64,000 nucleotides of DNA from Sinohyriopsis cumingii (taxonomy: Eukaryota; Mollusca; Bivalvia; Unionida; Unionidae): positions 20,269,308 through 20,333,307 of the forward strand of contig CM068841.1 of assembly GCA_028554795.2 (NCBI GenBank), written 5' to 3'. Of this stretch, positions 37,446 to 64,000 are shown in pieces; position 1 is the stretch's first letter, and each line of letters begins with the position of its first letter. The position numbers were made by a program, and so were the translations under genes. The notes beneath the pieces were generated by a model. The model saw nothing but the letters and a program-made list of their open reading frames with translations, did not search any database and had not been told where the DNA came from.

Positions 37446-38820
37446 ACCATCCAAATCCCGACACGTACTATCCAACAGACCATTTTTATCAGTTAAACTG
37501 TTTGATTATCTTATCCGCAACACAAGTTATTGATCGTGACATAGTGCATGTTATGACTCCAGTCTCAGAATCAGATTCTATGTTAGTAGTGATTGGCCAC
37601 AAGATTAATCTCAGCATTCTGGATAGTTGATACCAGAAACTGTCAATAAGTTCGGTTCTGTTTATTTATCTTCCCATGGCTAACTGAGCCTGAACTAGTT
37701 CATGCCCTTGGATTTGGCACAAATGTTCAATTAATTAAAATCCCTTGTCTCTAACTATTATAAATACAAGAGCAGGGGCAGGCAGTTGTGTAGCTGGGCT
37801 TGGTACTGTAAGAAACACTGGTTTAGGTTTTTGTGAAGATTTTAGCCTTATTTTACATAAAGGTTTAGGACCTTCACTTGGTGTTTGTGTGTCCTTGGAA
37901 CCCGAATATAATAGTGCAATTACTTTTTCTTTTGAATATTCTCGCGAAATGGGAATCATAATTAAATTTATTAAACCCAACAAATGTCTTTCTTCGTATT
38001 GTCTTTCTTTTTTATTGGATTGTTCCTTTTCTTCTGAACTTATTTACTGGAAAGTGTTTTTCTTCTATTGCTGCTAATAAATGCTCATTGTCTTTGTTTC
38101 TTTCTGTTTTAGAGCGACACCCCCGAAGGCAGTGTCTTTATTCCTGACAATGATAACGGGTATCATTAATTACCCTTGTCTATCATTTCTCCTGTCTTAG
38201 AGCTTCTTTTTCATTCAAGATGTGGACATATAAGAACCAAATAACCTTTTCTTCTTGACAGCTATGGCAGATAATCTTGACCTGTTTCTTGCGAGGAGTT
38301 GTCAGAGGTCTTGCTGGAAGTATAATTTCGAGTAACTCTCTGTATATGCCTGAACAGAAGTGCTATCTGTTGTAACTCTTCCAGCTTCACAGGTTGGAAA
38401 CTGAATGAGTGTATTCTCTTGCGAAACAAAGAAATAAATTAAAGAAAATAAATTGTAACCATCGTGTGTCATACAATGATTACAGATTTCCACAAGATAA
38501 CCGACAACGACGTTACCTGTCACCCAACACGCACCAAGAAGTGTTGGCAGAAGTTCACGCTAGCGAAATATCTAAATTCAGTACCATTTACCTCCACTGG
38601 ACAGAGATATCCAAGATCAGCCAGGAACAAAAGTCGTTCTGTAGCTACTGAAGATGTTTTCGAGTTATAGCTCCCGACAAAAAGTGACTTCCAGAAAATT
38701 TAGAATGACGGTTTATATTTACACTGCTAAATTTAAACATTTCAAGTCCCAGTGGTTGTCGTGTCTTTCTAAGTACAGCTCATAAAGCTGCAACAAAAAT
38801 ATTTTGGTATACGAAAGCTA

Positions 38821-38829
38821 ACACACACA

Positions 38830-38860
<31 letters not shown>

Positions 38861-38873
38861 GCGCGCGCGCGCC
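38821..38873. repeat. (AC)n(GC)n alternating purine-pyrimidine tract
   Basis: About 13 AC units pass into about 13 GC units without interruption. Such a tract can adopt Z-DNA. Consecutive CpGs are unusual in this AT-rich, CpG-poor setting. Confidence 0.95.
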
Positions 38874-40379
38874 ATGACGTCCATAATTCAAAGGAATCTT
38901 CTTGTCTTGGGGAATCAATTCTTTTGAAAATACACTAAGACTTGAACAGTGTCAATGACTTTCTCCACGGAATTTGGTGCGACATTGAAGAGATACGAAC
39001 TCGTGACATGGCAAATGTTATAATGTCTCCGCAGTTGATCAGTGCAAGACCATTTGACATTTTAAAACTAATCAGTCTTCTTACGGTATTAAGATACCAA
39101 TGAGTCAAATGTCCATGTCGTTTCGGATGTAAATTGTTGTTTGCATTTAACTTGAACTTGTATAAAATAGCTGTAAATGCATCCTCGCAGTTCATGAGGT
39201 AGATTATAGATGTGTTCCTCCAAACAGTCTTTCCACAGGAATTTCATTGGACCATTTGAACATCAGTATTTGTTTATATCATTCAGATACCAATGTTTAA
39301 AACATCTCGGTCGTAAGGGATGCATTGTTCTCTTTTGTAAACAGTAAAGTTGCAAACTTCACAAAGGTGAAACTTTTTCGTTATTAGTACAAACATGTCA
39401 CGCAGAAGTTCTAATATAGGATTGTCCTACTATCCAATGATTTTCTCAATGAAAACAATTATGAAAATAAACATTCAGTGTCCGATTTGCATAGTATTAA
39501 TTATAAACCTAGTAAATTTGCATCACTGCTAGTTGTAATAGCCTAGAGGAATTGTAGGTGAAGGAAAGTTATAAAACGAATGGACAATGGAAAAATCTAA
39601 TCCACAGAAATTTGCGAAAATCCTCATTCCAGTAAGTAGCTGATATATAAGAATTCTAGACCATTACTAATTTAAAAGATGTAAATTTATCATTGACGTT
39701 ATCATTTTAATTTGGGTCTTACTATGACCTTTAATATGAAATATAGCGTTAAAAGTAACATTAAAAGTATCCATATGTTTAATTGTATCGGCCCCCTAAC
39801 TGAACATTTAATGTTAAAACTACACTTACTAAATAATATGGCGTTTCTACTGACCAACACTCAGATATATACTTTCCAACACGCAGGTATCTACTATCAA
39901 AAATCTATATTATGCCATCAAGGTGCGTTCGAATTGACCATCATGTATATAGTTAAATATTATTCAACATTCACACTATATCACAAACACGCCGCTGGAC
40001 CGACCCATTCCCATATTTACTGTCCAATACGCTGTTACAGCAACAAATATCAAGTTACATAATATCCAACATCACCACATTTACTAGCCAACAAATTGGG
40101 ATGGGAATATATACAAGTTAATCTTATAATCAAACAAATATGATAACACTCAAGAGGCTAGGATGTTAAAGAATAGGAATACAATTGCACACACACAGAC
40201 ACTCAACCAATGGCAAGAATACTTATAAACAATGTCTACAACAAAACACATATATACCATGAGAAGAAACGTAATGGTGGTTAAAAAAACTTTGTGCTTT
40301 TTTTTGTTTGCCAGCCCTGAGAGTGTCGACCAGTTTGGATTAAGAAAGTTTGTAAAGCTCTCTAACTTGTGCGAGAAAA

Positions 40380-41400
40380 ATTTGTGTTTCTCACATTTCA
40401 AATTCTTTTTCTACATTTACATTCTCAATTTTGAATTTCAAAACGTGTTTTTAAAATTTTCCTTTTCACATCTACCTTTTAAATTAACGATTTTTAAATT
40501 TCATTTTTTAAATTATCCTTCCCATTCTTCCGTTTCAAATTTCGTTTTTTGAAATAATTAAATTGTTTTATTTTCAGTTTCATTTTTCATATACAATATT
40601 TTTCATTTTCAATTTCCATTTTGAAATATGTTTTTCGAAATGCATTTCTTTAAGTTTCATTTTTTAATTTTCATTTCTTATTTTCATTTTCAATATTGAT
40701 TTCTATTTGTTTTTTAAACTTTCTTTTATACTTTTTTATTTTCAATTTGTTAAAATTTTTAATTCTCTTTTTCAATTTTCACTTTCAAATTTATGCTACC
40801 AACTTTTCATTTTCATTGTTTTCAGCTTTGAAAATTTTTTTCAATGTTATTTTCCAGTTCTTGTTTTCAATATTTTATTTTTGATTTTTATTAAAAGAAT
40901 TATTTTACAAATTTAATTTTGAAAATCTTAGATTTCAACTTTTTCCATTTCAACTTTTATTTAAATATCTCATTTTACAAAAATATATTTGTACCTTTTC
41001 ATTTTCGGTTTTGATTTGCACATTTGGTTTCTCAATATTCATATATTTAAATATTTATTTCAAATTGTATTTTCAACTTTTATTTTTTAAAGTTTAGTAC
41101 ATTCCAGATTTCACGTGACAAATTTCATTTTACTCTTCCTTTATATATTTAATTTTTCTAAGTTTTCATTTGAAATTATTTTCTTTTCAACTCTCACATT
41201 CAAATTTGATTTGTTAATTGTCATATTGTTAGTTTTAATTAAAATTTATCATTGTTTTTTAATCTGCATTTCCAGATTTAATTTATAAATTCCATTTTCA
41301 ATATCAATTTTCAATTTACTCTTTTGCATTTCCATTTCCAAATTTTGCTGTGCTTTTCATAAATTCTGTCTCCAAATTTTGTTTTTTATATAAACAAATT
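40380..41400. repeat. T-rich low-complexity tract
   Basis: About 1 kb built of short degenerate blocks such as TTTTCATTTTCAATTT and TTTCAAATT. The + strand is almost lacking in G. Open frames here read Phe/Leu/Ile/Ser and are compositional. Confidence 0.75.
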
Positions 41401-41559
41401 TGTTGTGCCAAAGCAATGACTGTCTGAGAAAACACAAATTTTGTGTTCAAGATTGAAAACGGCAAAAACTTAAGTAAGATAATCTTTCATAGATACTGAA
41501 CATGATGGTAATGAAAGATTTAAGAAGACAAAAGTTTAAATACCTGGGATTTGGTTCAC

Positions 41560-41692
41560 ATAGTTCAAACTATACTAAAACTTGGAAGATATGGATGAAG
41601 AACTGTTAAAATAAACTCAGTTACAGTGATTGACTTAGAAGACGACGAAGTTTCAAAATTTAGATTGTGGCTTCACAAGTCATCAATTATAT
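41560..41692 (+). pseudogene. Integrase C-terminal (chromodomain) remnant
   Basis: GTGGCTTCACAAGTCATCAA at about 41667 reads VASQVINY in one frame and matches the end of the chromodomain in the integrase at 63165 (DASQVIDY). It lies just upstream of the two-TM remnant, as in the other copy. Little more is recognisable. Confidence 0.45.
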
Positions 41693-41713
41693 ATACACAC
41701 AGTAGAGACCGCC

Positions 41714-42080
41714 ATGCCGTTGAACATAGCAGCTACCTCTCCTTCCCACAGCTTCTCTTTTCAAGAACACCAAAACAGCAACAACAATAACCGCTGTGGG
41801 TGTGTTGTAGAGAACGTTTCCCACAAAACTGAATCCTGTTTTCTCAATTATTTTTGGTATATTGTGTCATTGGAGCAACCATTGGAAATCTGAGTTTGCA
41901 AGAAGGAGATAAAAAATTGCGGACCATTTTTACTCGTAGATTATATTGGCCATCTTCTTCCCAGTCAAACAGTAACAACAATAGTCGTGTTTTGGCCAAA
42001 TTCAGTCAAAAATAAAACATCTCTTGCAGTCACAGTAGCAGCCATCTTCTAGAACCCTTTTTGGAAACAATTCCTCTTTG
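41714..42080 (+). pseudogene. Two-TM membrane protein remnant
   Basis: The ATG at 41714 opens a Ser/Thr-rich start similar to the gene at 62746-63159. After it, segments reading YCVIGATIGNLSLQEGDKKL occur in a shifted frame, matching the first membrane segment and the loop. Frameshifts disrupt it. Confidence 0.65.
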
Positions 42081-42082
42081 AC

Positions 42083-42682
42083 AATGAGTTCCGCTTCAGA
42101 GACCGGAACCATCGAAATATGAACAATCACTTTTAATGAAAATTACCCAGAGGCAGTTCTAGCGATGTGTCCAAGCAACACATCATGTTACATCAGAGTC
42201 ACACTATCTGAAGCCATACAATTTGAAGCGCCTTGGGAAGTAACATATGGTATAAATGATAAGTCCAACCAAAATCAATAATGTGCTTGGAGATGAAACC
42301 ACTTTCCTCGTCGAAGTAAGTTCAACAACACGTGGACATACATGATTTACTAATCCAAAACACCATTACAAGCAGATCCTCAACTGAATTTCTATTCATA
42401 GAGCATTCCAACAAGATTTAATTGTAATGCTCAACATCTCCTTGAAACGATTTCGGATATTTTCAAGGATCAATTTGGCAAAGCAATGGAGAAAACTAAA
42501 TGAAGTGTACTGATAGGGTACCACAAAATAATTCAAGGTCTTAAATATATGTCAGTAAATCTTATTTTGACGGTGTGAATATTAAAATCGCCAAAGACCG
42601 TTGAAAAAATATTCTATTCTGAAAAGGAAGAATCACGGCGAAACGAAATTTTCGAAAACAAATATCTAGTGATTTGTAAAAA
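42083..42682 (+). pseudogene. Penton-like minor capsid protein remnant
   Basis: Matches to the protein at 61819-62749 include a CPSNTSCY region with a following WEV at about 42170-42240 and QHLLETISDIFKDQFGKAM at about 42432-42490. Stops and frameshifts interrupt the frame. Confidence 0.6.
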
Positions 42683-43062
42683 ATACCGAAGAACCGTTCG
42701 ACTACTAGGACATGGTTTAGGAGACATATTAAAAATCAGCGTATCGTACGGTGTTGCCCATCTTACAACCTATGATGACTCGAGGACTGCATGCATTCCT
42801 TGAACGCAGAGAAAATTTTTTACCCCAAATCTACTATCAATCAACAAAGGAATAACGGATCTTTGACTTAAGCTGATTGATTCAAACAAGAAAAGACATT
42901 TTGGATCGCCAAGACGATCCTATACATTCACGCCACGCTTCTGGCGAAGGCAATACTTCCAAGTGTATTCTAAAACAAGGACAAAGGCAGAAAGAGATGT
43001 TGAAATCCCATCAGATCGCATACGTTCAGAGGAAGGATACGAAAAGAAGAGGAACATGAGCT
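42683..43062 (+). pseudogene. Core-like basic protein remnant
   Basis: GHGLGDILK at about 42710 and MMTRGLHAF at about 42772 match the core-like protein at 61399-61815. The ILDRQDDPIHSRHAS region (frame 42877-43059) matches its central part, and its Lys/Arg-rich end is kept as KDTKRRGT. Frame changes separate these pieces. Confidence 0.7.
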
Positions 43063-43154
43063 GTGAAAGAATTAAACGTCCTTGATTACTAATTAGAAAT
43101 ATTGTGCACCTAGATTTGTGAGCATTATCCAAATTAGGACTAGATTTGTTTGCC

Positions 43155-43500
43155 ATGTCGTCGAAAACGATGACGATGAAAGAAATCCAATGTTTAGAAC
43201 TATATCATGTGTTGGCTTTGGCTACCTCAGCCCATGTCGAATTTGAAATCAAAGGACATTGATCTGAAAAACAGTCACTTGTACATGAAAATCAAATTCT
43301 CGAAGTGAACAATAACAATGCACAGCCTTTATTGCACGATGTTGGATTTAACAACCGTTGAAAGAAAGTCAAAAACGGGCACAGTTTATAACTGATGGAT
43401 CGTTTATGTTTGGACATGTGGCTGCAAGACGGGTGGAATGAAAACCTTCACCAATGCCTCTAGACCACGATCTAAGATCTGGGACTTTCATTACCATCTG
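43155..43500 (+). pseudogene. Major capsid-like protein remnant, internally deleted
   Basis: It begins at an ATG at 43156 followed by sequence reading TMKEIQ and later HVEFEIKG, then IDLKNSHLYMKIKF in another frame, matching the N terminus of the capsid-like protein at 60073-61385. DRLCLDMWLQ at about 43400 matches its middle. Most of the gene is missing. Confidence 0.7.
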
Positions 43501-43519
43501 ACACACAGTTCGCATGCGT

Positions 43520-43883
43520 TTCTTGAAATCCCGTAGTGTGTGCTAAATATGAACTTCCTCATCGCAAACTAAAGAAATTAAAGCATATGCCGTCAGTGAA
43601 GACGACAGTCATTTACCACGAACCCAATGGGTAGCTGTCGACTTTCCCAGTTATTACAGGATGGTGTGGGTTGTTTATTTTATCACCTCTTTGTGAAGAC
43701 TTTATATTTGACTTTATGAGGAGAAATGCATTATCGACTCGATTTAATAATGTAAGAATTCAAAGATTCTATAGTGTGTGTGTGTATTTTCTTTATCAAC
43801 GCATTATTGTATTTCCTTTAGAAAATGTAATAACTTGTTCTGATCGTGAGTACTCAAGAACTAATGATAAATTATTAAGATAG
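43520..43883 (+). pseudogene. Adenain-like protease remnant with lost catalytic residues
   Basis: VVCAKYELPHRK (about 43530), DDSHLPRTQWVAVDFP (43601-43648) and FDFMRRNALSTRFNNVRIQ (about 43707) match the protease at 58992-59552. The catalytic His of T-H-W is Gln here (CAA at 43625-43627). The segment with the catalytic Cys (SLVCGQYC in the other copy) is shortened. The gene is dead. Confidence 0.82.
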
Positions 43884-44034
43884 CTTTGTGAACATGTGTC
43901 TGATTTGGATGTGTGTGATTTGGATATATTTTGTGTGTATCTTAAAGCCTTTGTGTGCAGAGACATTGTCAGAGATCATTGGGGGTCGAGTTTGGCTCCA
44001 CAGCCTGTTCAACCTTGTAAATGTGTTCATGTTT

Positions 44035-44189: not shown

Positions 44190-46600
44190 TTTACGTATCG
44201 CCGTCTAAATTTACCCAGTGGAATGATATATATTGCGTGATACGAAAATAATTATGAGCCAGAATGATTGGATTAATTTTGGAAATTGATATACGCGTCG
44301 TACACGAAATTCAAAGTTGAAGGAATCAATAAGGAATAAAAAAGAAATTATTGACCATAATTAGCCTAATTGCACAGGTGCCTTACACATTATGGGAAAC
44401 AAAACCTTTCAGCCAGCAGCTTGATAGGTTAATATCCAGTATCAATTCAGCGGGCAGCAACTGCTAGCATTGTCCACACCAGAAACACTACACCATGTCT
44501 TCAATGAATGCACGAAATATAATACACTTTAGCAAAACATTCCAGGAAAAAGAGATATATCTAAAAGCCAATTTAAAACCTAATTAGAAGTCCTTCAACC
44601 AGGAACTAACATATCAGCATGATATACAAGAGTATCGTGGGTTACTTATCTGTGATTGGAAAAAGAGGAAAATATAAACCCCAGCTAAATAAAAAAAGAC
44701 CTCTTATCTATACTGGAAAAGAAAAACATAGGATACAATTAAGTGGACACAAGCTATCTTGGGAAGGAGAGAATGGACTCCACCAGGGGTGGAGGGTAGA
44801 AGACCAGGTCTATTAGAGACCGAGTATCTCTGGCGTGCTAATCCCGACCCTCGTAGCAGAAAAAACTCCACGCCCATAGAAATAAAAAAAAAAACAAGAA
44901 ACAATCAATATTATCACAGTAAAATCATAAAATTAACAAATATTAAATAAATGCCAAAAATATTAGATATTACGCATATAACTCATATAACAAACCTCAA
45001 ATATGCATATTAACCACTATACTCTATTATTTTTATCCTACTAGAGGAATAATACCCTCTAAAATAAGTCCTTCTTCTGTCTTCGTTAGCAGGAAGTAGT
45101 ATCTGATAATTGCCAGGAAAATAATCCAAAGAGCTTTCACCTTACATATGATTTACACCATATAAAGTGTTTCTCTGTCCAGATCATAAGGCACCGCTTC
45201 TCAAGGTGGCAAAAACTGGTTTACTCAAAACGAATCAAACTTATGACCAGCTAAGCTGACCTCTGAAACTGAATGATTTGAGGTGGTCCTAAGTCCATAT
45301 CATCAGACCCCTTCCACATAAGGTGGCAATATTTGGTTAACTTAAAGGGAAATAACCAATGGACATGAACATTTGACCCCAAATATAAGGTGGTCAAAAG
45401 TCCGTTATCACCTGAGCCAATTGCACAATGCGATACTGGATTGCTAACAGTTCCCAGAAAATATAAGTAAGAAATAGTACCCAAAAATATGAATGACTAA
45501 ACTACCCCAAAAATTAGTGTAAGGTGGTCATAAACTCAAACCACCAGACCCAGTCACACAAGGTGGCACTGATTGAACCACCTTAAAATCTACACTATAA
45601 CTCAAGATACAGGATGCAAATGTTTACGAAAATTGGGAATATGCTTTAATCTTAGACAGGCCCCAAATTTTCAAAGTTACCCTTCCTGTCTTAAGCCATA
45701 CTTTACTAACCCAACCGCCAAAAACGCAGACTATTTGTATTTAAAATTCCGGTGCAAGATGTCAGCTTTTGGAAACGTTTAAATATGAAACAAATCGAGT
45801 CATCCCGTGACATGGGAGCACAACCCTCTCCGACCCTTCCACTACTTTCTCCGCTTCAGGGCATGCAAATTAAAAAGAATGCGGTGCATACATTAAAGTC
45901 TCGATGGGCATTAAAATAGACGGGAACTTAAGTAGTAGACGGGTCTACATTAATCAGTCGCACATGGCCAAATGGCCGCATGCGACTATCACCAAAAATA
46001 GGCAGACTGACAGTCTGACTCGGCAAGAACTACAAATGAGCAAAATTATAAGACTGGATGAGGCCATGGTGCGCATACATCGTGTCGAACATACATGATT
46101 TAGACGAGCAATATCTTCTTAAAAATGGTGCAAGATTTAGGCGAAGATGTCTGGTGCGATGAAAACATGGAGATATTAGGAAGAGAGATGGGGAACCATA
46201 AAAGGAGGCAACAACAACAGAGAAAGTAGAGGCCACAGCTGCATGAAGGAGGAGAAGCAGAATGCAGAATGGAGACAAAGTAATCCTCTTTTTGAAAGTG
46301 TAGGCCTCATGCTGTAATGCAGCTGCGGTGAGAAAAAGATAAAGCCCAGGACAACTCACCAAACAAAGCGGTCTTTTTCAGGGCCACACTCATCTCTAGA
46401 AAAAAAGAGATACTAATCTTAATTTTCATTTGTGTTTTATGTTTTGTGTTCTTGTATGTCTTTTCCTTTCCCACGAAAAAATTCCTTCTCATGCAGTATG
46501 TGTTTGTATGTAGGGTTTTAGATGTGTATCTATGAACACTCCGTTATTCTTATACTATACTTTTCTCATTCTCCTTGATAGTAGAGATTGATGTTAAAAA
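44190..46600. other. Spacer in decayed Polinton with a degenerate repeat
   Basis: At 45150-45590 a degenerate tandem repeat of about 130 bases carries the recurring block AAGGTGGTCATAA/AAGGTGGCA with CACCAGACCC. The rest shows no recognisable gene. The original small gene that should follow the promoter at 44120 could not be read. Confidence 0.45.
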
Positions 46601-46614
46601 GTGTAAGGTATGTT

Positions 46615-46722
46615 TACCTTCATTTCCATGTTTCAGGCATATAAAGCGATGTGTTCACCAGTCTGGCTTCAGTCTTGTACTAACAGAGTAGTGAGCAGGA
46701 CGTATCAGTAAAATAGTCAAAC
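46615..46722 (+). promoter_or_regulatory. Small-gene promoter (TATA + CCAGTCTG)
   Basis: TTCATTTCCATGTTTCAG is followed by TATAAA at 46640-46645 and CCAGTCTGG with its C at 46659, 19 bases from the TATA start. It precedes the ATG at 46723. It has the same architecture as 44120-44180 and as the three promoters of the - strand element. Confidence 0.6.
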
Positions 46723-47321
46723 ATGGAAGTATTGAATCCCGCCCAGGTCATGAACGCGATCAAAAGATTCGGTCCTAATATCGCTTCAGGGTGGAGCCTA
46801 AGGACTCAAGCAAGTCGAATCACCTTGCAGCTAATCTGGGAGGATAGTACTAACAAGAATAGCTGGAGAAGCAGCCTGGAGAGAAAACCGGAACAGGGAG
46901 GTCAAATTCAGCGACAATGGAGAGAACGAACAACACAAACTGGTCATCACTTCGTATTGCAGCTGCAGAAACCCAGACTTCAAGAACTCCACGTCCAAGT
47001 GCAACAACACCTCCAGCTTCAACTTTTAAAGTTGAGAAACGGACTCTATTGCCATTGATAACACCAACGAGTTCAATTCTAAAGGTGCCAGGAAAGGGGG
47101 CGAGCAGGGAAGAAATAAACAACAGCAGCAAAATCGAAAAGATAAAGAGACTGAAGAACCTACAAAAGAAGAAAGAGAAGGAAAAAGCGCAATCTACACG
47201 AGCAACAGAAACATCAATTGTATCAATACTAGACAATACTAGCAATTGTAACAACATCAACAATGTTAACAGCCCAACCAGGAAACAAGCCCAAGGGACC
47301 TCCGTCAGCACAAGCAGATAA
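46723..47321 (+). pseudogene. Small Polinton-associated gene, copy 1 (frame-broken), function unknown
   Basis: From the ATG the first ~50 residues read cleanly (NPAQVMNAIKRFGPNIASGW, then SLRTQASRITLQLIWED). After about 46870 a more natural reading lies in another frame: a Thr/Pro/Ser-rich stretch with TPRPSATTPPAST, then a Lys/Glu-rich coiled-coil-like region (KIEKIKRLKNLQKKKEKEK) up to a stop at 47321. One frameshift thus probably separates an N-terminal globular part from a disordered charged tail. A second, more decayed copy lies at 48147. I do not recognise the family. Its position downstream of the protease and its promoter tie it to the Polinton. Confidence 0.5.
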
Positions 47322-48146
47322 GAAAGCGGTGACAAAGATAGAAAACCAAAAACGACGGTGGTATCAAAAAGGTAAGCTGTGAGAGCGTATGTTTTTTCTA
47401 TCTGGCGAATAGCAGATCAAAAGAGTACAGCAAACCAGGAGAGAACGCCTATGAAAAGGTGAAAAGAAGTTTCCTGGGATTGCAGCACACAGAACAAATA
47501 CAGCTGATCAGTCTGCCAAATGACCTTTCAGGAAATGTTCTTTTAAATCATATTTTGACCGGTTTTGAGCCATCGTGTAAATACAGCCATATATCCATGC
47601 ATTTAACTGCGTGATACCAAAATTAAAAGGAGTAATTGTTACTCTCTGAATGGTTATATGTCTTGGGAAATTGATTTACACTGTATACACATTATTCTAT
47701 CATGAATGTTATTAATTAAATTTGCAACTTGCGTGGTTATCTTAATTAAATACATGGCTAAGCATTTGTCGTTATGTATCGCCCGATTAAGTTAAAACTG
47801 ATAAAAATTAGAATGTTAGTACATGTACAGGGTTTCGGCGAGGTTCTCTTGACATTTGAGGCCTCCAGCCAGACTGCTCCTCTTTTTCTGCGCCCAGATA
47901 CATCATTTAAGTAGCATGATGTGCACACTGTAGTGTGTCGAATAGATCTTTATTACCCATTGGACTAGTAATTAAGTAGTGCGTGGTGCGCACAATTAAT
48001 CTCTGAACAGCGTGCATGGCACAATTTGAGATAAAGACGTGCATGGCGAAATAGCCGATAAATGTCTATAATTCATATCAGTCAGTCAAGCTGGCCATAG
48101 CCCTTAGCCAAGACAGCAACGGACAGAACGTATTAAGAAGATAGCT

Positions 48147-48560
48147 AGAGATGGAAATAATGATAAATACCCAAGCCCTGAATGCTATCAAATGCGTAGA
48201 CCTTAGTATTGCATCAGTGTGGAGTCTAAGGGTCAAATCTAAAAGGACAGCGCTTCTGCTCATTTGGGAGGATGAATCCAACTACACAAGAAGCAGCCCC
48301 CAAAAATGACCGCAACACAATAACGGGAACGTAGCACGCAGACTGGACCGATTCCGAGCTCCCCTTCCGTCGAACTTCGGGCAACTATTTCTCCACCTCC
48401 AACAACAACAACAGCAACAACATTTTCAGTTTAAAACATTGAAACTATGAAGAAATCTCACCGCCAACAATAACAGTGAGATCAACTCAACATTGGGCAA
48501 GGCATTGAAGAGGAGGAGAGGCACATAAAAAAAACGAAAGAAAGTAAAATAAGCCTATGA
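48147..48560 (+). pseudogene. Small Polinton-associated gene, copy 2 (decayed)
   Basis: The start at 48147 reads a protein aligned to copy 1: QALNAIK..LSIASVWSLRV and TALLLIWEDESN, then a stop. In another frame TQTGPIPSSPSVELRATISP with a following PPPTTTTATTFSV matches the Thr/Pro-rich part of copy 1. Further stops follow, so this is a dead tandem duplicate about 1.4 kb downstream. Confidence 0.5.
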
Positions 48561-51542: not shown

Positions 51543-51843
51543 AGACCATCCGGTGGCCTAAAGGTTAGAGCGTCCGCCTCGGATGCGGATGGTCGTAGGT
51601 TTGATCCCCGGCCGAGTCATACCAAAAACTTTTAAAAAATGGTACTAACAGATGGCGTTCAGCATTAAGAGGTTAGTGTTAGGACTGGTCAGCCTGGTGT
51701 CAGGATAATGTGACTGGGTGGGACATCTTGCTACATATCTGCGGCATGATGCCCCAGTGCTAGACATCACTAAAAAACTGTCACACTGCAGACATTGTAG
51801 TGATATGACTGAGATTTTTTAAAAGTTACGTTACAAATCCAAA

Positions 51844-56143: not shown

Positions 56144-56259
56144 CGGTCAGATTTCCTATCAACAAAGAAAAGATTTTGATCAGTCAGTCAGTCAGTTTAA
56201 GTCAATATGGATCCAAATCAGTTTTACCTCATCAGAATCAATGCTGATAGTAGTGAAGT

Positions 56260-56480
56260 GGGGCACTAGAGCGACAATGGGAATTAGCATTACAGACCCC
56301 CCCCCCCGGGCAAATATAGCGACAAGGGAAATTTAACATGGAGAAAAATCGTGGGCAAATATAGCGACAAGGGAAATTTAACATGGAGAAAAAAATCGTG
56401 GGCAAATATAGCGACAAGGGGAATTGAACATGGGAGGAATAAAGTGTGGGTCTATCTAGGGACAAGGGGGAATTGAACAT
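56260..56480. repeat. 45-48-base tandem repeat beside the first stem-loop, ~5 copies
   Basis: The unit contains GGGCAAATATAGCGACAAGG and GAAATTTAACATGGAGAAAA. Three copies are nearly identical; the outer ones are diverged. The array begins about 60 bases beyond the histone-type stem-loop at 56569 and may mark the end region of the element. Confidence 0.85.
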
Positions 56481-56541
56481 GGGATTTTTTTTTATCTTTT
56501 TTTTAAATTTTTTTTTAAAAAAAAGGGGTAGGCAATGGAAA

Positions 56542-56561
56542 GTCATTCTCTTTTCGAGAAA
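56542..56561 (-). promoter_or_regulatory. Histone-downstream-element-like purine stretch, gene 1
   Basis: On the - strand TTTCTCGAAAAGAGAATGAC follows the stem-loop at 56569-56584 after about 7 bases. In metazoan histone genes a purine-rich element (GAAAGA/AAAGAGAG type) at this place pairs with U7 snRNA. The identification is by position and composition. Confidence 0.55.
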
Positions 56562-56568
56562 TATGGGT

Positions 56569-56584
56569 GGCCCTGAAAAGGGCC
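56569..56584 (-). terminator. Histone-type 3' stem-loop, small gene 1
   Basis: On the - strand GGCCCTTTTCAGGGCC forms a perfect 6-bp stem with TTTC loop, preceded by CCAAA and followed by ACCCA. This is the full consensus of replication-dependent histone mRNA 3' ends (AAAGGCYCTTTTCAGRGCCACCCA). It begins 25 bases after the stop of the gene at 56610-56984, the usual histone distance. No AATAAA lies between stop and stem-loop. Confidence 0.88.
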
Positions 56585-56609
56585 TTTGGTTTTTCTTCTT
56601 CTTTTGCTT

Positions 56610-56984
56610 CTAATTTCTTCTTTTTCTCCACCAACTTCTTATTTTCTCTCCTACACTCTTTCTCTTCTTTTTTTTCTCCTCCTCTTCTTTCTTCTCCTCC
56701 TCTTCTTTCTTCCTCTTCTCATTTTCTTCTTCTTTTTCAATTTTTTCGTTCCATGCTCTTATCCTTATCCTTTCCTCTTCATCCTCCTTCTCCTCCTTTA
56801 TTTCTTTCATCACACCACTTATCATGTCCTTTACTTTTCTTAAGTTGTTAATCTCCATTTTTACTCTATGCGGACTATAAGAATAGTGGTCTTCATTTAG
56901 TCTCACTAGCATTTGTTCCATCATGCCCAAATTGTCAATGACGTCTTGCAATGTTTGCAATTTATCGAGGTGGTTTGAAGCCAT
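56610..56984 (-). CDS. Polinton small gene 1: charged coiled-coil protein, 124 aa
   Basis: The ATG at 56984 opens MASNHLDKLQTLQDVIDNLG, an amphipathic helical N-terminal half of about 60 residues. A very long Glu/Lys-rich coiled-coil-like stretch follows (about residues 62-108), ending in a basic-aromatic tail SWWRKRRN. I recognise no family. It has its own TATA promoter (57025-57064) and a histone-type stem-loop 25 bases after its stop, shared with the two following small genes. The helical, highly charged make-up suggests a protein-protein or nucleic-acid binding accessory role; this is inference. The purine-rich coding strand makes the opposite strand open too (Ser/Leu/Phe), which I reject. 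Confidence 0.65.
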   Translation of the reverse strand: MASNHLDKLQTLQDVIDNLGMMEQMLVRLNEDHYSYSPHRVKMEINNLRKVKDMISGVMKEIKEEKEDEEERIRIRAWNEKIEKEEENEKRKKEEEEKKEEEEKKKKRKSVGEKIRSWWRKRRN

Positions 56985-57010
56985 CTTCTCTGTAGAATGG
57001 TTTGAACGAC

Positions 57011-57064
57011 GAATACTGTGGGTTCTTATACGAAAAGCGCGGACGTGATGGAAAACATCCCCCT
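57011..57064 (-). promoter_or_regulatory. Promoter of small gene 1 (upstream element + TATA)
   Basis: On the - strand the element AGGGGGATGTTTTCCATCAC plus GTCCGCGC (57037-57064) is followed by TATAAG (57030-57025). A CAGT lies at 57018, closer to the TATA than in promoters 2 and 3. The ATG follows at 56984. Confidence 0.7.
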
Positions 57065-57072
57065 AAGACATA

Positions 57073-57134
57073 AAAATTGATCTTACCTAGATCATGACCA
57101 AACAACGCGCGGACGTGAAGGAAAAACATCCCCC
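57073..57134 (-). promoter_or_regulatory. Second upstream element and GATCT/AGATC palindrome, promoter 1
   Basis: A second copy of the element (57107-57134, - strand GGGGATGTTTTTCCTTCACG TCCGCGC) lies about 70 bases upstream of the first. Between them GATCTTACCTAGATC (about 57079-57093) is a palindrome with GATCT/AGATC arms and a 5-base spacer. The same pair of element and palindrome recurs upstream of gene 2 (57799-57895). Confidence 0.6.
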
Positions 57135-57349
57135 TACTTTTTCATTTCATATAATAAAACCCAAACTATACTTTCTTATTTCATATAATAAAACCCAAAC
57201 TATACTCTCCACATACGCTAAGAAACCCATAATCTACTATTCACACAAACATACCTGAGCTCTTACAAACACTAACACACAAACACATACCCTCACACTA
57301 TGAAAAGAAGAGTCAGTGTTTATATGCACACATTGGCAAATTGATGGTT

Positions 57350-57363
57350 ATTTCTTTTCTAGA
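57350..57363 (-). promoter_or_regulatory. Histone-downstream-element-like stretch, gene 2
   Basis: The - strand TCTAGAAAAGAAAT follows the stem-loop at 57373-57388 after about 10 bases. It is identical to the stretch after the gene 3 stem-loop. Confidence 0.5.
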
Positions 57364-57372
57364 GTATTGGGT

Positions 57373-57388
57373 AGCCCTGAAAAGGGCT
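57373..57388 (-). terminator. Histone-type 3' stem-loop, small gene 2
   Basis: The - strand AGCCCTTTTCAGGGCT forms a 6-bp stem with TTTC loop, followed by ACCCA. It begins 35 bases after the stop of the gene at 57424. The stem pairs perfectly; its outer pair is A-T rather than G-C as in gene 1. Confidence 0.85.
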
Positions 57389-57423
57389 GCTGGTTTTTTT
57401 TTTTTAACTCCAGATGCACCTAT

Positions 57424-57699
57424 CTAATGATGGCACCTTCCTGGCCTGGCGCCACACACGCATCTTCTTCCCCAGTCTCCTTTCACCTTTGTTCTTGGGA
57501 GTGCAGAGGCGGGATATGTGGCTTCAGAATCCCAATTTTCTGTCTCTGGGATTCTGAAATTTCCTCTCTCCTCTTCTTTGTTTCTTCTCTCCTCCTCTTC
57601 TTTTCTTCTTCTTTCCTCCTCCTCTTTCATCCTTGCTTCTTCGACAATGGCCTCCGCGGCCAGTTCATTTAGTATGCGCCTGGCATATTCCAGGTGCAT
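57424..57699 (-). CDS. Polinton small gene 2: charged helical protein, about 91 aa
   Basis: The first ATG in this frame is at 57699 (MHLEYARRILNELAAEAIVE). Residues 1-25 look helical, then a Glu/Arg/Lys-rich coiled coil runs to about residue 48. The tail has Trp, Pro and three Cys (GRRCVCGARPGRCHH). An upstream ATG at 57738 in another frame opens only a short peptide, so either leaky scanning or a frame break near the start is possible. It shares promoter element, spacer and 3' stem-loop with genes 1 and 3, which makes the three a repeated cassette. Function unknown. Confidence 0.5.
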   Translation of the reverse strand: MHLEYARRILNELAAEAIVEEARMKEEEERRRKEEEERRNKEEERGNFRIPETENWDSEATYPASALPRTKVKGDWGRRCVCGARPGRCHH

Positions 57700-57762
57700 C
57701 TGGAGTTCTAGCAGTTTCACAATTCTTGGTATTCATTGTTTTGTCAACGAATGAACAGGGTA

Positions 57763-57826
57763 GCTAGACTGTCCAGCGAGTTTCAATTTATAGTGAAAGC
57801 ACGGACGTGAAGGAAAACATCCCCCT
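57763..57826 (-). promoter_or_regulatory. Promoter of small gene 2 (element + TATAAA + CAGTCT)
   Basis: - strand order: AGGGGGATGTTTTCCTTCAC plus GTCCGTGC (57799-57826), TATAAA (57792-57787), CAGTCTAGC starting at 57771, 21 bases from the TATA start. A partial second copy of the element lies near 57873-57895, with the GATCT/AGATC palindrome between. Confidence 0.72.
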
Positions 57827-58197
57827 AAAAACATAAAATTGATCTTACCTAGATCATGACCAAAGAAACAACGCGCGGACCTAAAAGAAACACTCACTCA
57901 CTTTTTTATGCTACCCATTCCTATTCTAAAAATTTTTTTCATTAATCACTTCAATAGACTATCCACATACGCAAAGCAATCCAATCCAACCCCAAATCTA
58001 CTCTCCCCACACCTCAAACAGCCTAAAAAAAAAACAAAACAAACATCATATTAATCTACTATCCACACCAACGTACGTGAGCACTTACAAACACACAATC
58101 TTATACACAAACACATACACTCACATTTTTTAAAAAAGAGTTAGTGTTTATATTCACACTACTCTACCTACATACACATTGGGCAAATTGATGGTTA

Positions 58198-58211
58198 TTT
58201 CTTTTCTAGAG
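58198..58211 (-). promoter_or_regulatory. Histone-downstream-element-like stretch, gene 3
   Basis: The - strand TCTAGAAAAGAAAT follows the stem-loop at 58221-58236, with the same spacing and sequence as in gene 2. Confidence 0.5.
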
Positions 58212-58220
58212 TATTGGGGT

Positions 58221-58236
58221 AGTCCTGAAAAGGGCT
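58221..58236 (-). terminator. Histone-type 3' stem-loop, small gene 3 (one mismatch)
   Basis: The - strand AGCCCTTTTCAGGACT has the TTTC loop and flanking ACCCC but one C-A mismatch in the stem. It begins 46 bases after the stop at 58283. The flanking sequence is nearly identical to that of gene 2, so the two 3' ends are duplicates, one slightly decayed. Confidence 0.75.
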
Positions 58237-58282
58237 GTTTTTTTGTTTTTGTTTTTTTTTTTGTTTGCTATGGCAATCTTTT

Positions 58283-58645
58283 TTAGTTTCTAAGAATGCA
58301 ATGTCCTCTGAGGATAGACTTTCTGGCGATAGGTCTGCTTCTTCGGAAAGAGAAGAAGAACTCTTTGGTGTCGATACGACAATCGACAAAGCCTCTGTCA
58401 GGTTCAGGTTGCTGCTGCTGTTGTTGTTGTTGTTGTTGCTGTTGCTGCTGTCTCTGAAGTCTGTACTTCTCTGTCCATTCTTCTTTCTCCCTGTTCACTT
58501 CTTCTCTGAAGAGCTCTTCTATCAGGTCTTCAGTGACTTTTAACATTCTCACATTCTCTATTTCTTCTGGCTTCGGTATCAGACTGTGTCTGACCCTATG
58601 CAAATTCACGTAGGATTCGTTTAGCTTAGCTAGTTTGGAGCACAT
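58283..58645 (-). CDS. Polinton small gene 3: polyglutamine coiled-coil protein, about 120 aa
   Basis: The frame stays open from 58765, but its first 40 codons run through the promoter element and TATA-like box, so I place the start at the ATG at 58645 (MCSKLAKLNESYVNLHRVRH). A helical, charged segment (residues 20-70) leads into a run of about 15 Gln and a basic C terminus. After the Gln run another frame (to 58195) reads a Ser/Glu-rich stretch (STPKSSSSLSEEADLSPESL) that looks more protein-like, so a frame change in or near the repeat is possible; that frame would read through the stem-loop. No known family. It is the first gene after the protease and has its own promoter. Confidence 0.5.
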   Translation of the reverse strand: MCSKLAKLNESYVNLHRVRHSLIPKPEEIENVRMLKVTEDLIEELFREEVNREKEEWTEKYRLQRQQQQQQQQQQQQQQPEPDRGFVDCRIDTKEFFFSFRRSRPIARKSILRGHCILRN

Positions 58646-58674: not shown

Positions 58675-58738
58675 GGTTAGACTGGAAACAACCCCGGTTC
58701 TTAAAGTCAAAGCGCGGACGTGAAGGAAAACATCCCCC
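58675..58738 (-). promoter_or_regulatory. Promoter of small gene 3 (element + TTTAAG + CCAGTCT)
   Basis: - strand order: GGGGGATGTTTTCCTTCACG plus TCCGCGC (58712-58738), TTTAAG (58705-58700, a weak TATA), CAGTCTAACC starting at 58684, 21 bases from the TATA start. Only one copy of the element is seen here. Confidence 0.68.
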
Positions 58739-58866: not shown

Positions 58867-58872
58867 TTTATT
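58867..58872 (-). terminator. Poly(A) signal AATAAA after the protease gene
   Basis: AATAAA on the - strand 119 bases after the protease stop. It is the only canonical signal I see after the compact structural block, so it probably serves the whole block. Confidence 0.6.
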
Positions 58873-58991: not shown

Positions 58992-59552
58992 CTACTTTAA
59001 ACAGGGCTGACAACGTTGTGAATGAAATTGTGATTTCCACTGTTGGAAATCATTAGGCCGTTGATGGACACTACGTTTCCTAGCTTGAGACAAAAGATAA
59101 GCATAATGGTCACAAAACCATCGATCTACTTTCACATCGTTTCTATTAGAAGAACGAGGATCAAAATGCGACACTAAATGTTCTAAGGAATAGCCCAGGC
59201 TGCGATGATGCAGAAAATACACACAGTACTGTCCACACACCAAGGAATCTGTGCCTTGTAATTTCACATTATTGAATCGGGTGGTTTGAGCATTTCTTCT
59301 CATAAAGTCGATGATATCGTCTTCCAAAGGGGGCAATCCGTACGAATCGAAATATTCCACACATCCTTCTTGAGGAAAGTAGACGGCTACCCAGTGGGTT
59401 CCTGGGAGATGACTGTCGTCCGTGTTGATCACGTAAGCTAGATGGTCTTGAGGTTTGCGATGAGGAAGTTCATTTTTAGCACAGACGAGAGGATTCCAAG
59501 AAGCCGTATACGAACTGTGGTTCAAAAGGTAATAAAGTTCCCAGGTATCCAT
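58992..59552 (-). CDS. Adenain-like cysteine protease, about 186 aa
   Basis: Polintons, like adenoviruses, encode a C5-type cysteine protease that matures virion proteins. Counting from the ATG at 59552 (MDTWELYYLL), the catalytic His is in GTHWVAVYF (H53), the acid in EYFDSYG (D69), and the oxyanion Gln and nucleophile in LQGTDSLVCGQYC (Q99, C106). The spacing Q-x6-C equals that of adenain. Length is close to the ~200 residues of the family. The frame is open 10 codons further upstream with a GTG, but homology within the window (the + strand remnant) gives no support for a longer start. It follows the 161-aa gene by 26 bases and precedes an AATAAA. All active-site residues are present and the frame is intact. 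Confidence 0.92.
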   Translation of the reverse strand: MDTWELYYLLNHSSYTASWNPLVCAKNELPHRKPQDHLAYVINTDDSHLPGTHWVAVYFPQEGCVEYFDSYGLPPLEDDIIDFMRRNAQTTRFNNVKLQGTDSLVCGQYCVYFLHHRSLGYSLEHLVSHFDPRSSNRNDVKVDRWFCDHYAYLLSQARKRSVHQRPNDFQQWKSQFHSQRCQPCLK

Positions 59553-63164: not shown

Positions 63165-64000
63165 TCACTTCTTTTTATAGTCGATGACTTGAGAAGCGTC
63201 GATCCAAGAATCAAAACTGGGTGGATATCCTTTCCAACGTACTTTGACTTCTTTGACACGTCGTTTGCCTACTTTACTGGTTCTGCGTTCGAGAATGCTT
63301 TCGATGTCGTACACGTCGTCTTCTTTTTTGGTGACACGTTGTAACTCGGGCAAATAAAACGTTCCTTTGAGCACTTCTCCGTTCATGTCTTCCAATTTAT
63401 AGACGGCAGGATGACGACCATGCACTCGTCCAGTGACACGAAACAATTCGGTCGACCAGTTAGGTAAGTAACCTTTGTCAAAAGTGCGTTTGGTTTTGCC
63501 AATGCGCACCCAATCTCCTACGGTCAACTCTCCACTTTTCTTGGGGACAGCCCTCGTCGGGGACGTACCAAACAGGCGCTCAAACACCAGCACTTCGTTG
63601 TCGGGAGTCTCTTCTTGCGGGGCACGTCCGATGCTTCGATGGTAAGATTGGTTGTACGCTTGCACCAGGTGTGGTAAGATGTCGATGTACTTCAGAGTGT
63701 GGTGATGCGTAAAATATTTCCACATGCGTTCTTTCAATGTGCGTTGAAAACGTTCCACGATGCTGGCTTTGGTTTCGGGATTCTCGGTGGTAAAAAATGA
63801 ATGTTACGTTTCTTTAATTCTTTTTGGAAAGCTTGGTTCAGAAATTCGGTGCCTTTGTCCGTTTGCCATCGAAGAGGGTGACGACCGCTTTGTTTCAACA
63901 CCCGTTGCAGGGCTCGCACTAACTCGCTGCTCGATTTGGAAGTCAAGGGCACGACCCAGGCAAATTTGGAAAAGATGTCGATGACACAAAACAAATATTT
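63165..64000 (-). CDS. Retroviral-type integrase with chromodomain, partial, one frame break
   Basis: The N-terminal part lies beyond the right edge. In the window the DDE core reads VIDIFSKFAWVVPL (first Asp), WQTDKGTEFLNQAF (second Asp) and, in the second frame, VERFQRTLKERMW (catalytic Glu). Then come the QAYNQSYHRSIG region and an SH3-like part (VGDWVRIG). The C terminus is a chromodomain (YDIESILERR, VKVRWKGYPPSFDSWIDASQ). Polinton integrases belong to this class and insert the element with 6-base duplications. The frames 63734-64000 and 63165-63758 join near 63795 beside a run of six T (- strand); one lost T would explain it. The break separates the second Asp from the Glu, so as written the enzyme would be inactive. 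Confidence 0.9.
63790..63800 (-). other. Frame break in integrase at a T run
   Basis: CATTTTTTACCACC on the - strand is the crossing point between the two integrase frames. A one-base loss in the T run is the simplest cause. Confidence 0.6.

Follow-up and report, generated by a model that had tools for sequence, protein, structure and literature searches.

We analysed a stretch of 64,000 nucleotides (nt) from the 2.9-Gb genome of the bivalve Sinohyriopsis cumingii (contig CM068841.1, C18:20269308-20333307), referred to below as the window; labels such as L009 and L010 denote stretches read outside it. From position 56249 on, the window holds one end of a 20,004-bp Polinton/Maverick element (G000:C18:20325556-20345559), identified as such by an rve integrase, an A32-type ATPase, terminal inverted repeats (TIRs) and a 6-bp target-site duplication. 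Five small genes of this element, three at the left end (g1, g2 and g3) and two at the right end beyond the window, are each followed by a stem-loop resembling the one that ends replication-dependent histone mRNAs. The left-end features, in window coordinates, are the following (ORF, open reading frame; aa, amino acids).

56243..56248, no strand: target-site duplication GCTGAT, from reading of the element edges; the other copy lies at L011 260-265
56249..56593, no strand: left TIR; its minus-strand matches in L010/L011 span 68 bp (100% identity) and 259 bp (96.5%)
56545..56550, minus: g3 AAAAGA at +14 nt relative to the stem, presumed to be the core of a histone downstream element (sequence)
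56565..56584, minus: g3 stem-loop, GGCCCTTTTCAGGGCC followed by ACCC, inside the TIR (Rfam Histone3, 40.8 bits)
56610..56984, minus: g3, K/E-rich coiled-coil-like ORF of 124 aa (ORF list)
57349..57354, minus: g2 AAAAGA, +14 nt (sequence)
57369..57388, minus: g2 stem-loop, AGCCCTTTTCAGGGCT followed by ACCC, outside the TIR (28.7 bits)
57424..57699, minus: g2, ORF of 91 aa (ORF list)
58196..58201, minus: g1 AAAAGA, +15 nt (sequence)
58217..58236, minus: g1 stem-loop, AGCCCTTTTCAGGACT followed by ACCC, one non-pair, outside the TIR (19.6 bits)
58283..58645, minus: g1, ORF of 120 aa beginning MCSKLAKLNESY (ORF list)
63165..63725, minus: C-terminal part of the integrase, with chromodomain; the rve core lies at L009 7542-7946

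The right-end stem-loops lie at L010 8776 (minus strand) and 9842 (plus strand); there, gene X is directed inward and a gene of 77 aa (MWTT77) outward. All stem-loop genes are uninterrupted, intronless ORFs with a short 3' untranslated region, and none encodes a histone. None matched a Pfam family above the cut-off, the matches below it being Casc1_N (g2) and AIP3 (X). For MWTT77, metagenome records contain two related proteins, 78 and 79% identical to it. Members of the g2 family in other elements begin with MNTRLAKLLELH or a similar sequence; the copy in the window appears disrupted in its N-terminal part. Among intact copies, ratios of nonsynonymous to synonymous substitution rates (dN/dS) were 0.13 for MWTT77 (23 copies), 0.15 for g3 (6), 0.40 for g1 (9) and 0.43 for X (9), with g2 (1 intact copy) and the family variant starting MFEP (2) too few for an estimate. 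Across loci L012-L046 the g3 position was seen to be filled by either of two seemingly unrelated families, the K/E coil or a family of 182-204 aa (MDVE182, also starting MFEP), so that the gene is exchanged and the terminal stem-loop retained.

The initial annotation had described three minus-strand genes followed, 25, 35 and 46 nt beyond their stop codons, by stem-loops with TTTC loops and ACCC flanks; sequences, loops, flanks and distances were all confirmed at the places claimed. Its further statement that this amounts to the full histone-type signal set also held by sequence: besides the stem itself, the TTTC loop, the A-rich flank on the 5' side and ACCC are all present, and a purine element stands at a constant distance, as in the host H4 gene. 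A stem-loop pattern allowing up to three mismatches occurred at four places in the window and in none of 100 shuffled windows; the fourth place, 46370-46389 on the plus strand, belongs to the surroundings of an older, diverged Polinton relic, downstream of which it lies. The Rfam Histone3 model, which had been proposed as a check, gave a divided result: the g3 stem-loop scored 40.8 bits (56544-56589) and was the only one to pass the gathering score of 34, whereas those of g2 (28.7 bits, 57348-57393) and g1 (19.6 bits, 58197-58241) fell below it. The g1 stem (58217-58236) contains one non-pair (C.A).

Presence of the stem-loop in related elements, on which the initial annotation had made its proposal depend, was checked inside this genome, and the signal was found at five gene positions in many elements. 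A genome search with Histone3 scored a sample of 75 of 589,472 first-look candidates, at 34.5-45.6 bits, and 35 of these 75 places, a non-random choice (rows 1-20, 27 and 62-75), were read with ~3.5 kb on each side. Every one of the 35 lay in Polinton context. A Polinton protein other than the stem-loop genes was matched in 32 loci, the remaining three (L016, L027 and L031) matching stem-loop genes and TIR, and a TIR match longer than 60 bp was present in 34. No core histone gene (H2A, H2B, H3 or H4) was found near any of the 35 matches read. The 3' end of a host H4 gene scores 37.7 bits, under 69 of the 75 Polinton-rich matches and over the last six, so the absence of histone genes among the matches read mainly means that Polinton signals outnumber histone genes. 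An H4 query located 113 places in the genome: 109 identical full-length copies, mostly in arrays of ~8.3 kb, three partial copies and one decayed copy.

Exact matches to AGCCCTTTTCAGGGCTACCC-N6-12-AAAAGA numbered 18,607 and to GGCCCTTTTCAGGGCCACCC-N6-12-AAAAGA 13,138, together 31,745, a genome-wide count of the pattern taken irrespective of Polinton location, whereas the reversed patterns gave none. With at most two matches of the first kind per left end, the 18,607 would correspond to at least ~9,300 left ends, implying thousands of copies of this Polinton family in the genome. Chance as the origin of the signal was rejected on its absence from the shuffled windows and on the zero count for the reversed patterns.

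Gene copies were then counted in the 35 loci, the window and L010, for six families at five positions, with G-U taken as a pair. A stem-loop followed 84 of the 90 gene copies, 72 of them without defect and 12 with one deviation; of the six worse or missing cases, four still had a stem-loop bearing two or more defects. By family, perfect plus one-off copies were 10+2 of 14 for g1, 11+2 of 15 for g2, 6+1 of 7 for the g3 coil, 7+0 of 8 for MDVE182, 21+2 of 23 for MWTT77 (one further place was lost at a locus end) and 17+5 of 23 for X. The loci had been picked through stem-loops of the GGCC class, which makes the counts and conservation of g3, MDVE182, X and MWTT77 lean high and leaves g1 and g2 unaffected; for these two families, which were not used to choose loci, the stem-loop was present in 25 of 29 copies. 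Outside the signal, 16-nt segments as conserved as the stem-loop numbered 8 of 239 for g1 and 0 of 257 for g2, and, in loci selected by their own stem-loop, 0 of 245 for MWTT77, 0 of 237 for MDVE182 and 0 of 235 for g3.

The form of the signal was tabulated for 87 stem-loops, three of the 90 copies having no stem-loop above the cut. All 87 have a TTTC loop, partly by construction, as cut and score reward the TTTTC letter run. The first stem pair is G-C in 56, A-T in 26, A-C in 3, C-C in 1 and G-T in 1, and the second is G-C in 86. ACCC follows the stem directly in 74 of 87, and AAA or AAC directly precedes it in 86. AAAAGA lies at +14 from the stem in 77 copies and at +15 or +16 in four, and is absent in six; after shuffling, 3% of the flanks contain it. 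For the mouse downstream element, AAAGAG is given as the core purine sequence (PMC7026596). That form is present in g3 (7/7), MDVE182 (8/8), MWTT77 (17/23) and X (12/22), and was found in none of the g1 (0/13) and g2 (0/14) copies, where AAAAGAAAT mostly takes its place.

The host H4 3' end, of which one was read, consists of GGCCCT TTTT AGGGCC followed by ACAAAAAGAA and CTAGAAAAGA, with AAAAGA at +14, and the shared GGCCCT/AGGGCC stem and CTAGAAAAGA would fit stem-loops captured along with a host histone gene end and functionless in the element. Such a capture is nevertheless very improbable. The flanks fall into two classes, with pair 1 switching between G-C and A-T; the stem-loop stands after six gene families, and those of g1 and g2 are better conserved than most of their surroundings. 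Visual inspection showed no resemblance to the H4 3' end past the signal, in a comparison made with H4 and not with the ends of H2A, H2B, H3 or H1. Capture of a histone gene was rejected as an account, no core histone gene being present in the loci read; the captured ends that the initial annotation had itself named as a way to be wrong thus found no support.

The left TIR has its inner edge just 5' of the g3 stem-loop, and the stem-loops of g3 and MWTT77, the outermost at each end, lie inside the TIR at its inner edge. The palindrome could accordingly be a DNA signal of the terminal repeat, kept for replication, packaging or integration, with its likeness to a histone RNA signal incidental. 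Three stem-loops per element (g1, g2 and X), however, lie outside the TIR, each past the stop of its own gene and on that gene's strand. The motif is moreover asymmetric, with its TTTC loop and with ACCC and AAAAGA at +14 on one side, and nearly the same arrangement occurs in the host H4 gene. The three stem-loops outside the TIR led us to reject a pure TIR function as the sole account, and we give it hardly any weight.

The element also contains a gene, named protease-like from the usual Polinton layout, that serves for contrast at both ends of the transcription unit. The promoter-side and poly(A) features in the window are the following.

57037..57060, minus: repeated promoter box upstream of g3, then TATAAG at 57030-57025 (sequence)
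57799..57822, minus: repeated promoter box upstream of g2, then TATAAA (sequence)
58712..58735, minus: repeated promoter box upstream of g1, with TTTAAGAACC at the TATA position (sequence)
58867..58872, minus: AATAAA of the protease gene (sequence)
58992..59552, minus: protease-like gene (PRO; ORF list, name from the Polinton layout, no Pfam match)

In all 11 copies of the protease gene, AATAAA or ATTAAA stands 98-122 nt past the stop, one copy having a second, nearer signal. Within 250 nt, either hexamer was found after g1 in 1 of 14 copies, g2 in 1/15, g3 in 2/7, MDVE182 in 4/8, MWTT77 in 6/23 and X in 9/23; for AATAAA alone the counts were g1 0, g2 1, g3 1, MDVE182 1, MWTT77 3 and X 9. Downstream poly(A) signals, at which poly(A)+ reads would have to end to contradict the initial annotation, are by sequence rare after g1 and g2, commoner after the other stem-loop genes (21 of 61 copies together) and constant after the protease gene. 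The zinc-knuckle gene of the element, which has no stem-loop of its own, carries a poly(A) signal in 9 of 22 copies, so the evidence for two 3'-end classes comes chiefly from comparing the protease gene with g1 and g2. The two sets also differ in their promoters: TATA[AT] lies 20-120 nt before the ATG in 59 of 69 stem-loop gene starts and in 0 of 9 protease starts. By family it was present in MWTT77 (24/24, all at -52), X (13/14), g2 (10/10), g3 (8/8) and MFEP (2/2). CCAAT boxes, counted on both strands up to 250 nt away, accompany MWTT77 (24/24) and X (14/14), and were found elsewhere in g1 (2/11), g2 (4/10), g3 (0/8), MFEP (0/2) and the protease gene (1/9).

Taken together, these data support the idea that, on the pre-mRNAs of the five small end genes, host SLBP recognises the stem-loop and the host U7 small nuclear ribonucleoprotein AAAAGA, that cleavage would fall between the two and that the mRNA would lack a poly(A) tail. 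The protease gene, and perhaps other structural genes, would use an ordinary poly(A) signal, giving two 3'-end classes per element. Synthesis, translation and stability of histone-type mRNAs are largely tied to S phase, and the five genes would therefore probably be limited to the time of cell DNA replication, a timing that would fit an element carrying a polymerase of its own. The sequence case for working histone-type 3' ends is strong, and S-phase-limited expression is an expectation drawn from knowledge of the pathway. Overall, we put at about 80% the probability that the host SLBP/U7 pathway forms the 3' ends of five Polinton mRNAs, with S-phase timing as the probable consequence. The initial interpretation, which had proposed such a use of the histone pathway, is as a whole partly supported. 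The wider proposal, a viral counterpart of the histone regulon in which five small genes that are unrelated to each other, and mostly have a TATA promoter each, send their mRNAs through the histone pathway only during DNA replication, beside a poly(A) structural class, we consider somewhat more probable than its opposite.

Several observations weigh against this assignment to the SLBP/U7 pathway. In the one host H4 3' end compared, the loop is TTTT, ACAAA stands where the Polinton genes have ACCC, and AAAAGA occurs a second time, at +3. For host U7, Rfam returned one match, below the gathering score; one pattern search gave 11 matches against 3 in its control and a second gave 16 against 24, and none of nine candidates read (L047; L049-L054; L055-L056) was judged convincing. 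Duplexes with the Rfam U7 consensus were only modestly better than shuffles. AATAAA occurs in 9 of 23 copies of X, in some just 5' of the stem-loop, and AATAAA or ATTAAA in 12 of 38 copies of g3, MDVE182 and MWTT77 together. TATA[AT] was found in only 2 of 11 g1 starts. Despite favourable loci, the X stem-loop is no better kept than its surroundings (30 of 249 segments as good). The copies are related, so that the counts are not independent, and the outermost stem-loop at each end, lying within the TIR, could be kept for DNA reasons.

Some of these points would suit signals that work for poly(A)-independent ends, or for SLBP-aided translation or stability, without a real S-phase restriction. 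In such a case poly(A) isoforms might coexist, as for H2A.X, for which dual 3' processing is described (PMC7807067). The hexamers counted above after X, MWTT77, MDVE182 and g3 favour this possibility, as does the AATAAA that is also present after the host H4 stem-loop. It is opposed by the near absence of AATAAA after g1 (0/14) and g2 (1/15). SLBP-dependent mRNAs of animals are, moreover, bound to S phase. We regard expression free of S-phase restriction as unlikely, though as a far more serious contender than either terminal-repeat function or capture.

Beyond the stem-loop genes, the ORFs of the element matched in Pfam are the integrase, the A32-type ATPase, a BIR-domain ORF and a zinc-knuckle ORF. 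The BIR (inhibitor of apoptosis) domain ORF within the Polinton lies at L010 3152-3835 on the minus strand (83.6 bits). The CCHC zinc-knuckle gene stands at the right end (L010 7970-8566, plus strand), opposite in direction to the polymerase frame and converging with X. A frame of 1356 aa sits where the polymerase pPolB is expected and is, from its size, place and motifs, a candidate protein-primed DNA polymerase B. Capsid and protease names are likewise putative assignments from the usual Polinton layout: the capsid-like and protease-like ORFs in the expected place had no Pfam match and a single, weak PHROGs match, to phrog_9180 (E 0.0017), whose function is unknown. One relative of the ATPase, at 68% identity over 65% of the query, came from a bin bearing the name of a symbiont of lucinid clams, a hint of a bivalve host. 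Among viral contigs, where records very near this genome may be left out, the histone pattern had no match, and searches for the protease and the ATPase gave 1 and 5 stretches fitting a pattern, of which none was confirmed.

The window also contains a strongly decayed Polinton of another lineage, at 38517-44018 on the plus strand, whose protease is 35% identical and whose capsid-like fragments are 42-53% identical to those of the first element. Two of its associated features are listed here.

43518-44018, plus: relic protease, 35% identity (comparison with the first element)
46370-46389, plus: decayed stem-loop and ACAC, then CTAGAAAAAAAGAGATA, downstream of the relic (19.0 bits, E 0.46, weak alone)

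The decayed stem-loop gives a hint, from its sequence, of an older origin of the signal. Two related ORFs were also seen downstream of the relic, at 46723 and 48151 (MEVLNPAQ... and MEIMINTQ...; region 46370-48309). Elsewhere in the window, a tRNA-like match at 51547-51619 (plus strand) scored 26.6 bits against an Rfam threshold of 29 and is perhaps a tRNA-derived short interspersed nuclear element.

If the SLBP/U7 assignment is true, a DNA transposon or virus that has equipped five of its genes with histone endings would illustrate how an integrated element aligns its timing with host S phase, and the tens of thousands of SLBP/U7 sites in this genome would form a natural set for testing. With more than 31,000 exact signals against ~110 H4 genes, transcribed copies could compete with host histone mRNAs for SLBP and U7, raising the question of whether such elements burden the host histone pathway. 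A practical warning is that a Histone3 scan of such a genome returns mostly transposons. To our knowledge, histone-type 3' ends are nearly private to replication-dependent histone genes, and the matches listed in full-text PubMed Central searches, a scope leaving most subscription journals and preprints outside, contained no description of them on a Polinton, Maverick or adintovirus. The nearest entry is a list of histone 3'UTR stem-loop matches (n=6) in a set of polinton-like viruses and virophages (PMC12220804); it differs from the present case in being a bare count, with none in that paper's own cryptophyte elements and no genes or mechanism discussed in the section concerned.

In its general make-up the element resembles Polintons/Mavericks and adintoviruses, having a polymerase-like long frame, an rve integrase with chromodomain, an A32-type ATPase and, named by their place in the typical gene order, protease- and capsid-like genes, together with TIRs, a 6-bp duplication and a length of ~20 kb. 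The 3' ends of its five end genes in turn resemble those of replication-dependent histone mRNAs (RF00032): the stem has 6 bp and the loop 4 nt, the 5' flank is rich in A, a purine element follows at a constant distance, and an uninterrupted ORF is joined to a short 3' untranslated region. With host H4 they share the GGCCCT/AGGGCC stem, CTAGAAAAGA and AAAAGA at +14, the CTAG form being that of g1 and g2; in g3, X and MWTT77 its place is mostly taken by CTCG or TTG. They differ from histone mRNAs in belonging to non-histone genes of a transposon or virus, and in combining a TTTC loop with ACCC where host H4 has TTTT and ACAAA.

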